A program made the position numbers and the translations under genes. The notes under the pieces were generated by a model. It was not told the origin of the DNA and searched no databases. It saw only the letters and a program-made list of their open reading frames with translations. Source: Phoenix dactylifera (taxonomy: Eukaryota > Streptophyta > Magnoliopsida > Arecales > Arecaceae). From it: a stretch of DNA of 64,000 nt. The stretch covers positions 5,507,775 through 5,571,774 of the forward strand of contig NC_052409.1 of assembly GCF_009389715.1 (NCBI RefSeq), given 5' to 3'. Positions 12,766 through 17,035 of the stretch are shown piece by piece. Every line of letters begins with the position of its first letter. Positions within the stretch are counted from its first letter, which is position 1.

Positions 12766-15700
12766 TCAGCGCCCACGAAACCCACGACAAAAGGCTGGCA
12801 ACACCGGCGTCATGCTCCAGCGAGCGTAGGTCTGAGTCCTCTCCCCATCCCCCCACAGCGCGTACGCCTCCTCCCCGTGTGCCGCATCGTCCCCTTTATT
12901 TAGATCGTCCTCGTTCATCCTCAGCGGCACGATTTTACTGATTGCCAAACATATAGCAGTCGTGATAACAACATTCCACACAGCTATAAACACCGCTCCA
13001 AGGAGCTGGTATCCGAGCTGCTTGAAGCCTTCGTCCAGGCGCCCATTATTGAAGTTATAGAACAAGCCAGAGTGGTCGTTTCCGCTGAACAGCGTCGTTA
13101 ACCGGGGATGCGCGAGGAGACCGGCGAGCAGCCCGCCCAAGGTTCCGGCGACGGCGTGGGTGTGGAACACCCCCAGTGTGTCGTCGACCTTCTGAAGGAA
13201 GGCTGCTCGTCTGTGCAGCACCATCATCGTGTACCATGGCACGGATCCTGACATGGTCCCCATCAGCATCGCCGCCCACGGCTCGACCAGCCCTGTCCAT
13301 CATGTCGTTCTCCAGCACGTCAGTTGGTTTTGCGAAGCTTAAAGATGGGATATTTGAAGTGATGTGAGTAAATAGTGGACTAACCGGCGGCCGGGGTGAT
13401 GCAGACGAGGCCGGTGATCATCCCTTGGACGGCGCCGATGACGGAGCTCTTGCGATAGACGAGCATGTCGAGGAAGAGCCAGACGGAGAGGCTGGTGGCG
13501 GTGCAGAGGTGGGTGTTGAGGACAGCGAGGGAGGCGACGGAGGCGAGGGAGTTGGTGGAGCCGGGGGCGCCGCCGTTGAAGCCGGACCAGCCCATCCAGA
13601 GGAGGCCGGCGCCGAACAGCATGTTGATGATGTTGTTGGGCGGGAAGTGCTGCCGGTCGTGGGATATCCGCGGGCCCACCTGGGGACAGCCATACGAGTT
13701 GGTGAATTTAGAACACGTCGCCAGGGTCAACAAAAATCTCATGCAAGGGTTCGGATCTTGTAGACCGCACTTTCTGGATTTGATGCGATGTAACTCGGAC
13801 GTGGACTCATGGCAACTAGGACAAATTTATATGTGCTTAGCCCAAGCCCACGCCATGACCAAAGCCGCAAGTAGACTTGGGCATCGGCCCGGCACGGCCC
13901 AGGCCCACCGGGCCCGAGGTCTAAACGGGCCGTGCCTGGCCCGGCCCGCTTCATAAGCGGGCCGTGCCGGGCACGGCCCGTTCAGCATAGAACGGAAGCC
14001 CGGCCCGGCCCCAGGCCCGTCTAGTGGCGGGCCGGGCCGGGCACGGCACGAGACGGGCCGTGCCGTGCTTGGCCGTGCCAGGCACGAGACGGGCCTCTGG
14101 GCCACCGCATCCTCCCCGGACGCGGACCGCACCACCCAGCTCGAGAACCCCCGGCAACCGTACTCGGCGAACACCGAGAACCCATCCCCCGGCTTCCACA
14201 CACTGCCATCGGAGAGCGGGTAGCAGCAGCCGAAGTAGCTCCGCTTGCCGTCGCAACCCCCGACGACGCCGATCCTGTCGCAACCGATCTTGCAGACGGA
14301 GGAGTCCTCGCAGGCGTAGAGGCGGAGGACGTTATCGGCGGTGACGGCGAAGAAGGGGCTGCGGTCGAAGACGAAGGAGGAGCGGTTGACGTTGGAGTAC
14401 CAGGGGTCACATGAGGAGGTTGAGTTTGGGGAGTAGTCGAGTAGGAGGGACCTGGAGGGAAGGAAGTCGATGACGCGGAGGTCGGTGGAGCCCAGAGTGA
14501 GGAAGAGGGCTGACGGGGTGGAGTCATCGGAGCAGGAGAGGCGGAAGGAGTCGATGGCGGGGCCGCAGGAGGAGTTGAGGTGAAACGGGAAGGGGATGGG
14601 GAGGTGACCGCACCTCTCGCCGCATTTGTTGGGGAAAAGGGCTTGGGGAAAGGCGAAAGGGAGTAAGGAAAAGAGGAGGAGGAGGAGGAGGAGGAAGGAA
14701 CCAGGCATGGCGAGAGTGGTAAAGAAAGGCCATGGAGAGCGGGGAGGGAGGAACTTTTAGTAGAGAGGGGAGACCGGGATCCGTACAGGGAGGGGTCTTG
14801 GGAGGTGGTGACGGGAACGGGTTTCGGAGACGGGGACGGGGAACGAGGCATGGGAGAGCGCGAGCGAGGCGGGGGCATGTCGGGGGAGACGGGCCGTGCC
14901 GGCCCAGGCCCGAAGCGGGCCGTGCCAGGCTCGGCCCGCGGGCCAGAAACCCGTGACCCAGCACGGCCCCCTTAAATGGGCCGTGCCAGGCACGGCCCGG
15001 TACTGTAGCTAGCGGGCCGTGCCAGGCACGGCCCGCTTCGTGCCGGGCCGTGCTGGGCCGTGGGCGGCCCGGCCCAGTGCCCAACTCTAGCCGCAAGATT
15101 GCCCTAGGCCGCACCCTCGGTCAACTTTCTACGTGGACCTGTTTTGAAATTGTAATGAATTCTTGGGATCTCACGCCACGCAAGAGACATGTGATTTTTT
15201 TTTTTATATAGTTGCTGAAAATGCATAAGCAGCCGGCCTTAATAACCTTTTGCTGGAAACAATTCAAAAAAGATCAATGGTTGATAACTCATTATTCAAA
15301 GGACACATGTCGACCATTAGAGGCTTGTGGTCTCGCATCAACGCAATTCACTCCACGTCTAAATCAAACCCAAGCTAACGTTTTCAGTAACGACAATTAT
15401 TCTCCGTCGAAGCGAAGGTAATAAGCAACGAGCCTCAAGATGTGTCTTTGGAAAGGTCGCTATCTCATGCATCAACAATGTTGTATGACCAGTCACCACC
15501 ATGCTCCAAATATCATAGTATATCGTATTGGTCCGAACTGAACAGTACGGAGCACACCGTACTATATCGGTTTAATACTGATATCTAATATAGATGGCGA
15601 ACCGACACTCGATATAAAAAAAAAAATTAATACTATACCATATCAATACTAGACGGCGAATCTTAGCAAATATAAATCTTATACATCATTAATACAGGTC

Positions 15701-16668
15701 GATTCAGATCATCTTCGATCTGGACCTAAAATGGACGGTGCCAATTTTCTTCATGGCGGTCCATAATTTGGATGAACCACTAACGCTGGTGTGAAATGCG
15801 GTATCCCATGTATTGCACGAAATCCATCCAATCATAACCCTTATGCAAGTCACGAAGAGCGGTGATTGGAGAATTGGCACTTTCCGTACGTTCAGGTCCG
15901 GATTGGAGAGGATCGATCAGAAGGCAAGACAACTCACCTTGCTGAAATCGCAGTAGGCCGCTGTGGACCTTTGTGGGCCACACGCATAACACAAAATCCA
16001 TGCAATGAAAGCAGTGAAGGCGCAGAGCTACATACCCAATATGCCGCCGTGAATCCGGCCACGCCGGAGGAGAGGTGGATAACATACCCTCCGGCGAAGT
16101 CCACCACCCCCATCTGGTCCAGGAACCCGCCTCCCCACACCGTGAACGCGCCCACCGTGTACGACGTCGTCAGCCACGGCGGCACGAACAACATCCACGC
16201 ATAAAAGTTCATCCTCCCGAGCAACGACCCGGCCAACAGGATCACCGTGATCGCCGCGAACGCGAACTGGAAGAAAACGTAGGAGGCCTTGGGGAAGGAG
16301 CCTTTGTCGCTTGCACTTGTGAGGTAGTCCTCGGGGAGCGCCATGGCCACTTGGCCAAGAAGCGGGCTGAGCCTATCGCCGAAGGACATGCGGTGGGCCC
16401 AGAGAACCCAGCAGAGGAGCACGGCGGCGAAGGCGTAGAGAGCCATGAAGGCCGAGTTCACGGCCCACTTCTTCTTCACCATGCTGCCATAGAGGATGAT
16501 GAGGCCTGGCACGCTTTGGAGGCCTACCAGCGCCGTGGCGGTCAGCTGCCACCCGTTGTCGGCGTGCGACAGCCAGTCGGGGCCCGTGAGGGCGAGCGGG
16601 CTAGGGCCCGGCGGCGGCGGGAGGCCTTCCTGGAAGCCCAGTACGCCGTGGTCGGAAAGATTCATCAT
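12766..16668 (-). CDS. Ammonium transporter, AMT2/AMT3 (MEP-like) type
   Basis: A plasma-membrane channel-like protein that moves ammonium/ammonia. Three exons on the minus strand: 16036-16668, 13385-13679 and 12766-13292, total 1,455 nt (484 aa plus stop), with GT-AG introns of 2,356 and 92 bp. Splices join AAYW to VGPR and ITPAA to GLVEPWAA in frame. Visible features: the pore-entry stretch [20 protein letters not shown]; the family signature [16 protein letters not shown] ending in GPR; the first pore His within VIHLSSG; and the second within [15 protein letters not shown]. The plant AMT2/3 tail [13 protein letters not shown] is present, after which the C-terminus differs from what I expect and ends in CRGFRGR, so a late frame change cannot be excluded. 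Intron 1 contains a gene-carrying hAT element in the same orientation as the captured ORF. The start is the first of two adjacent Met codons. Confidence 0.92.
13827..14708 (-). pseudogene. Captured first exon of a WAK-like receptor kinase (signal peptide plus GUB_WAK-type ectodomain)
   Basis: An open frame of 293 codons. Residues 1-21 are a clear signal peptide ([20 protein letters not shown]). Residues about 26-200 form a Cys-rich galacturonan-binding-like domain: [19 protein letters not shown], then [15 protein letters not shown] and a [12 protein letters not shown] segment. After about residue 205 the frame runs into the transposon end ([14 protein letters not shown] and similar low-complexity sequence) and stops outside the element. 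The transmembrane and kinase parts of such receptors are absent. The captured part has no stop or frameshift, so capture may be recent or the fragment may be under some selection. About 170 bp of leader sequence upstream (14709-14880) came with it. It is transcribed, if at all, in the same direction as the host AMT gene. Expression is unknown. Confidence 0.75.
13872..15089. mobile_element. Gene-capturing non-autonomous hAT-type element (Pack-hAT) in AMT intron 1
   Basis: A perfect 8-bp duplication GCCGCAAG lies at 13864-13871 and 15090-15097. The ends are inverted and begin TAGACTTGGGCA on the left and TAGAGTTGGGCA on the right, hAT-like termini. About 220 bp inside each end are packed with inverted and direct copies of GGGCCGTGCC and GGCACGGCCC. 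Between these GC-rich ends, from about 14100 to 14880, is unrelated sequence that encodes the start of a WAK-like receptor protein. No transposase is present, so mobility would depend on an autonomous partner. Confidence 0.88.
15510..15695. repeat. Degraded GTAC/CCGAAC-rich MITE-like patch in AMT intron 1
   Basis: The patch contains words such as GGTCCGAACTG, CAGTACGGAG and GGCGAACCGAC, repeated in both orientations, similar in flavour to the GGTACC-type hAT MITEs elsewhere in the window. I could not define its ends or a target duplication. Confidence 0.3.
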
Positions 16669-17035
16669 TGTTGTGGGTTCGGAGTTTGGAGCAAGGGGTT
16701 GGTGTTATGGTTGCGTGATTTGCCTTGTTACTTGGTGCGACCGAGGAATTATTATTTTTTAGGAGGCATAGGGATCATCCAATGTGACGCGTAGCTTTGT
16801 TTGCTTGTGGTGATGGAGCCTGGATTCTCTTAACATTCTCTTCTGGCAATATCTGGCTAGCCGTTTCTTGAATCTAGTGGAATCCCTTCCATATTTTAGG
16901 AATAATGATATATATGTATCTGATACCACGCCCATTCCCCATCCAACGAGTCAGGAGGAGACCATCGTTGCGGAGATTTCTGTAGATGTTATAATGATGA
17001 TGATCGATGACTTTAGACGTCATCGCCAAGCTAAG
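16669..17035. other. Region upstream of the AMT gene
   Basis: Candidate promoter and leader of the ammonium transporter on the minus strand. No gene is visible and no TATA box is certain. Confidence 0.35.

Follow-up and report, generated by a model that had tools for sequence, protein, structure and literature searches.

The closest described systems are hAT transposons that contain pieces of host genes. In maize, two Ds2 and nine Ds-l4 cases of captured gene pieces were reported by Du et al. (2011, PMC3260210), who called capture by hAT elements rare and mentioned the repair of excision breaks. Pack-TYPE hAT elements with host DNA inside are described from maize and rice (Gisby and Catoni 2022, PMC8903248), and in grapevine the single hAT family Hatvine-6 carries varying genic pieces, some of which are common to a few copies (Benjak et al. 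2008, PMC2528002). For animals, Tan et al. (2021, PMC8277862) describe the frog Pack-hAT hAT-N8_XT, which contains the 5' UTR of CAPSL and is located on three chromosomes within three distinct duplications. All four articles are cited here and below from excerpts. Given the published Pack-hAT cases and the maize and grapevine reports, gene capture by hAT elements is already known. The claim in the original prediction that it is less common in hAT elements agrees with the excerpt of Du et al. (PMC3260210).

The locus analyzed here is situated in the genome of the date palm, Phoenix dactylifera. In the window, i.e. the whole stretch of 64,000 nucleotides analyzed, positions 13872-15089 constitute a non-autonomous hAT element of 1218 bp, bordered by a perfect 8-bp duplication (Table 1). 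The duplication GCCGCAAG directly brackets TAGACTTGGGC...GCCCAACTCTA, and the terminal inverted repeats are 11 bp long (TAGA[C/G]TTGGGC), with variants of one to two changes in the relatives. An end pair with at most one mismatch per end and a perfect 8-bp repeat occurred once in the window and in none of 200 first-order Markov shuffles. Within the window, the motif GGGCCGTGCC is confined to the inside of the element. Direct reading and the shuffles bear out the perfect duplication and the paired ends that had been proposed, and the subterminal arms are GC-rich (0.76). The insertion was placed correctly in an intron of an ammonium transporter (AMT) gene, namely intron 1, and exons 1 and 3 of this gene match PF00909. 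The three AMT exons form one joined open frame with GT-AG introns; since the frame is open across all three, the element would probably be spliced out together with the intron. The captured fragment and AMT have the same orientation.

Table 1. Features of the element and of the surrounding ammonium transporter gene (positions in the window).
Feature	Position	Strand	Basis
ammonium transporter exon 3 with stop codon	12766..13292	-	PF00909 1.7e-22 for 12769-13299
ammonium transporter exon 2	13385..13679	-	recognised by eye
ammonium transporter intron 1 (GTATGT...CCAG), holds the element	13680..16035	-	splice limits inferred from the sequence
chimeric open frame, 293 codons and stop	13827..14708	-	in order: start of the receptor with GUB_WAK_bind region, hAT arm, short piece of the AMT intron
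target site duplication, left copy GCCGCAAG	13864..13871	.	read directly
left terminal inverted repeat TAGACTTGGGC	13872..13882	+	20-base left-end pattern: 576 genome matches
left subterminal arm, GC 0.76	13872..14093	+	90.7% identity in the closest match, a member with transposase
captured 5' end of a WAK-like receptor kinase gene	14094..14887	-	source C2:16204663-16205444; 97.2% identity, 8 mismatches, 14 gap positions
right subterminal arm, GC 0.76	14888..15089	+	16 matches shown, all to members with transposase, at 96-98% identity
right terminal inverted repeat TAGAGTTGGGC (inward reading)	15079..15089	-	20-base right-end pattern: 531 genome matches
target site duplication, right copy GCCGCAAG	15090..15097	.	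read directly; identical to left copy
ammonium transporter exon 1	16036..16668	-	PF00909 6.5e-31 for 16030-16671; limits by eye at GT/AG

The minus-strand frame starting with the ATG at 14708 matches the Pfam family GUB_WAK_bind (PF13947, 3.7e-9). The cargo extends from approximately 180 bp upstream of this ATG to codon 205 and ends within exon 1 of the donor. No stop codon is found in the cargo, and the frame crosses the left arm and terminates in the AMT intron after 293 codons. As read by eye, the frame starts with a putative secretion leader and is rich in Cys. The cargo had been taken for the first exon of a secreted, Cys-rich receptor without a stop; the receptor match and the open frame hold, but only a part of exon 1 is present, not the whole.

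A whole-genome search with the element yielded full-length matches on contig C18 (the window), at C1:36308989-36310250 and at C37:91679-92995, as well as a match to the cargo alone at C2:16204663-16205444. Both sister copies have perfect duplications of their own (GGTGGATT on C1 and TCTGCAAG on C37), which differ from that of the window, and one end base is changed in the C37 copy. The multicopy spread of the receptor fragment that had been considered possible is therefore seen in three copies with three different perfect duplications, in all of which the chimeric frame is open through the captured part (293, 320 and 269 codons). The C37 copy is located a few hundred bases upstream of an ORF (start near L003:3029; region L003 2810-3480), judged by eye to be a putative small membrane-protein gene.

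The locus on C2 runs on past the captured part and is followed, some 2.9 kb downstream and in the same orientation, by an exon with a protein kinase domain (5.5e-17), while neither element ends nor GGGCCGTGCC motifs were present in the 3.8 kb read. We take this locus to be the WAK source gene; the capture of a receptor piece is thus traced to a donor receptor kinase on another contig. The source (L004, about position 1521) has one C fewer than the CCCC run kept in each of the three element copies. In this assembly, the missing C disrupts the reading frame of the source close to where the captured part ends, which is either a real frameshift or a homopolymer assembly error. Seven substitutions and three indels relative to the source are common to all copies, one of the indels being a 12-base GAG-repeat difference in the leader. 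In contrast to these shared changes, only five substitutions are private (1, 2 and 2 per copy, in an alignment of 795 columns), as would be expected if the fragment was captured once and amplified recently. All five private changes are C:G to T:A and four of them are in CpG, which hints at methylated WAK copies, five changes in a CpG-rich stretch being few.

The 20-base pattern of the right end, with at most one mismatch, was found 531 times in the genome (controls 0 and 1) and that of the left end 576 times (controls 0 and 0), and the case that the ends match no other copy is thereby set aside. Twenty loci, not a random sample, were fetched from the best right-arm matches of the element search. 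With up to one mismatch tolerated in the duplication, 19 of the 20 were elements in which both ends and a duplication were recognized (perfect in 15, with one mismatch in four); no pair of ends and duplication was detected for the twentieth, L029. Seventeen of the 19 elements are 3.1-3.3 kb long. The other two, L041 and L047, are enlarged to 5.6-5.8 kb by additional DNA within the transposase region, which looks like nested insertions. The inner parts have a GC content of 0.33-0.34 in 17 elements and of 0.37 and 0.45 in the two enlarged ones, compared to 0.64 for the WAK cargo and 0.64 to 0.70 for the other cargos described below. All 19 elements contained segments of a hAT transposase, and the frames are broken in most. 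A single element, L034, has an uninterrupted frame of 675 codons, which matches Dimer_Tnp_hAT (PF05699, 9e-26) and hAT-like_RNase-H (PF14372, 1.7e-8); no zf-BED match was obtained at E 0.001, and a C..C...H....H pattern is visible by eye. The reverse-strand frames of L047 appear reverse transcriptase-like by eye.

A second set of elements was obtained by pairing ends that match exactly on the first contigs (100 of the 531 right and 94 of the 576 left ends; the right ends listed end at C12, and six left ends on C13 were left out). This resulted in 33 pairs representing 32 distinct elements: nine are short, 21 measure 2.9-3.5 kb and two exceed this length. All nine short elements were read, and gene fragments were found in seven. 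Most listed ends have no listed partner, for example when the partner carries a mismatch, so that the share of 7/32 is not a genome-wide rate. The seven cargos are WAK on C1, PORR on C2, 4CL-like on C5, GRAS on C4 and AP5B-like on C6, C8 and C11. An assumption that short members always carry cargo failed for L066 and L067, which are internal-deletion derivatives. These two elements (506 and 510 bp) have perfect duplications and retain part of the A+T-rich core; they may be miniature elements of the same hAT family.

Altogether, at least 12 cargo elements were recognized (three WAK, two PORR, five AP5B-like, one 4CL-like and one GRAS), and the other copies with different cargo that the original prediction had led us to look for are therefore present. 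The duplications are perfect in 11 of the 12; that of the PORR element on C2 matches in 7 of 8 positions. The latter element (L049/L056, C2:1740690-1742000) has short duplicated tips at both ends, as if the ends had been copied or re-inserted aberrantly. The second PORR element, on C800, has the same kind of ends, the duplication CTTTTGAT and a PORR-domain fragment (3.6e-39), and the PORR source on C13 contains an open stretch of 451 codons. The 4CL-like cargo on C5 has an AMP-binding match (6.1e-27) and the GRAS cargo on C4 a domain match (3.5e-8), whereas no Pfam match was obtained at E 0.1 for the AP5B-like cargo, the name of which is a reading of the protein by eye. A search with the AP5B-like cargo returned five elements with five different perfect duplications, weak matches of 68-83%, and one source gene on C17, which contains an open stretch of 503 codons. 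For the 4CL-like cargo, matches of 98% were found on C5, about 0.9 Mb from the element, and on C708, and of 92-94% at three more places; these may be genes or further elements. Three near-full-length 4CL-like matches (92-98%) lie within 90 kb at C5:13810303-13900288, possibly a gene cluster. The start codon is kept in four of the five cargos. The WAK and AP5B-like cargos show a substitution divergence of 0.5 to 1.2% from their sources, and these captures therefore look recent. Left ends are of the CATCGGG type in the WAK, 4CL-like and GRAS elements (with a deletion there in the window copy) and of the CAACGGG type in the PORR and AP5B-like elements. The arms, too, have their best matches in different full-length members, so that gene capture took place in two or more arm lineages.

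The proposed hAT-type origin is supported by the 8-bp duplications, the short terminal inverted repeats and the hAT transposase domains in elements with the same ends. The window element has, in addition, the features of a Pack-hAT, namely ends and duplication, no transposase, a host gene piece inside and a source elsewhere. The same cargo is found together with its arms at three WAK and five AP5B-like sites, all with different duplications, which suggests movement as a unit. Other classes were rejected. Pack-MULEs are defined by a 9-bp duplication and relatives with Mutator transposase, whereas the duplication here is 8 bp and the same-ended relatives have a hAT transposase. CACTA elements have CACTA ends and a short duplication, in contrast to the TAGA[C/G]TTGGGC ends and the 8-bp duplication. 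Helitrons have neither a target duplication nor terminal inverted repeats, both of which are present here. Rice Pack-MULEs, which have Mutator ends and the corresponding duplication and, according to the title of Ferguson et al. (2013), show a GC preference, likewise capture gene pieces repeatedly between the element ends; the window element is not a member. The hAT family Dart/nDart of rice has GC-rich subterminal regions and similar-looking ends, a likeness at the level of description.

Among the hAT systems, the frog element hAT-N8_XT resembles the palm elements as a hAT with a captured 5' part of a gene, amplified at sites with distinct duplications; unlike the palm family, it is an animal element with a cargo of 291 bp (PMC8277862). 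Multicopy cases number four (1.4%) in the excerpt of Tan et al. (PMC8277862), their origin being left open between gap filling and fork stalling with template switching, whereas three of the five cargos seen in the palm family are present in more than one element. The maize Ds2 and Ds-l4 elements are likewise non-autonomous hAT elements with gene fragments (PMC3260210). They have Ac/Ds ends, and the Ds-l elements tested were unresponsive to Ac according to the excerpt (PMC3260210). In the palm, comparison by sequence shows 96-98% identity between the right arm of the window element and members with a transposase. The maize and rice Pack-TYPE hAT elements also combine ends, an 8-bp duplication and host DNA inside, and belong to other species and families (PMC8903248). 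Hatvine-6 elements share transposase coding sequence (PMC2528002), while in the palm cargo elements the transposase core is replaced. Among 20 of 35 papers on date palm, hAT elements and gene fragments, no title or abstract opening dealt with the present family.

In the WAK and PORR captures, the entire A+T-rich core is replaced and the breakpoints coincide with the inner boundaries of the GC-rich arms. At the right WAK junction, GGA is common to source and arm, and at the left junction a few bases, with one mismatch, are shared with the arm; these homologies are short and might be due to chance in such GC-rich sequence. In four of the five AP5B-like elements, the cargo reaches ...GGCGTTATT and is followed by CCGGTATGATAG. 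The 15-nt sequence ATTCCGGTATGATAG is found once in the AP5B-like source and a second time, 53 nt further on, in these four elements, while in the fifth copy (L063) the region was lost at a GGG shared with the arm. A 15-nt repeat templated nearby corresponds to a slip-back of the polymerase with a template switch and thus favors template-switching repair. Most probably, the WAK element is a Pack-hAT derived from a 3.2-kb hAT element, the core of which was swapped by such repair before amplification in trans; the template switch and the mobilisation in trans are what we infer. A break in a hAT copy would undergo error-prone repair, in which synthesis leaves the GC-rich arm, continues on the source gene after a template switch at a homology of a few bases, and then returns to the other arm. 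The GC-rich 5' piece of the receptor-kinase gene would thereby take the place of the whole A+T-rich transposase core. Transposase provided in trans by full-length relatives could then have moved the finished element to at least three insertion sites, one of them in the AMT intron, and at least four other genes would have been captured likewise by the same hAT family.

Published models of capture differ. For single-copy animal Pack-TIRs, gap filling was supported, and fork stalling was offered for the multicopy cases (PMC8277862). Excision-induced abortive repair is expected to cause large deletions with breakpoints near the ends, which were absent in the animal set as excerpted (PMC8277862); such deletions are the pattern in the palm family. 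Fusion of neighbouring insertions, in which two hAT copies insert on both sides of a piece of a gene and joint transposition of the outer ends takes the intervening DNA along, is the model favored by Gisby and Catoni for Pack-TYPE elements, as tandem insertion and re-mobilisation, and is reported for maize and rice, hAT included (PMC8903248). Hundreds of family ends make neighbouring insertions plausible in the palm, and one of the two closest 4CL-like matches is on the same contig as its element, at the distance of about 0.9 Mb given above. The WAK and PORR junctions, however, lead from the arm straight to gene sequence with no second element end seen there, the WAK source is on a different contig, and the 15-nt templated repeat of the AP5B-like elements is indicative of template switching during synthesis. 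Fusion is hence rather unlikely as the origin of the WAK element. The capture models can be ranked in this way, and none is proven.

That the fragment itself is functional, as a secreted decoy ectodomain or a source-silencing RNA expressed either from the region upstream of it or as an alternative AMT first exon, seems improbable. The frame open in all WAK copies and the shared strand with AMT would suit such a role, but the capture left out the remainder of receptor exon 1, including the splice site, and the private C:G to T:A changes hint at methylated copies. Still less credible is retro-capture, i.e. copying of the fragment from an mRNA into a hAT element. No intron is present in any cargo (judged against the sources for WAK, PORR and AP5B-like, and from the frames alone for 4CL-like and GRAS), as would be expected of mRNA copies. 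Retrocopies are usually anchored at the 3' end, whereas the three captures compared with their sources are 5' parts of genes without poly(A), and that of WAK includes about 180 bp upstream of the ATG, which disfavors this route. An ordinary local receptor gene with merely transposon-like repeats, for which the start codon and open frame might speak, can be dismissed, since the whole unit with its arms recurs elsewhere with other duplications and the exons that come next are those of AMT, not the kinase exons of a complete local gene, the kinase-bearing gene being elsewhere.

Returning to template-switching repair, the GC-rich arms might serve as platforms for template switches that favor GC-rich 5' ends of genes. 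The family would then act as a capture engine resembling Pack-MULEs, in which the core is replaced, the start codon is usually kept and full-length relatives provide early amplification; we put this forward tentatively, as a possibility somewhat short of probable. The palm family is new, unusually prolific and notable for the number of captured genes, the multicopy cargos, the sources, the transposase-bearing relatives and the junctions. Capture by hAT elements has been regarded as rare (Du et al. 2011, PMC3260210), and the route by which cut-and-paste elements take up host DNA is a matter of debate. The palm family provides five captured genes, three sources, candidate sources for a fourth and fresh junctions, one of them with a templated repeat. 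Cargos, sources, relatives and junctions together make it possible to compare the competing capture models within a single genome.
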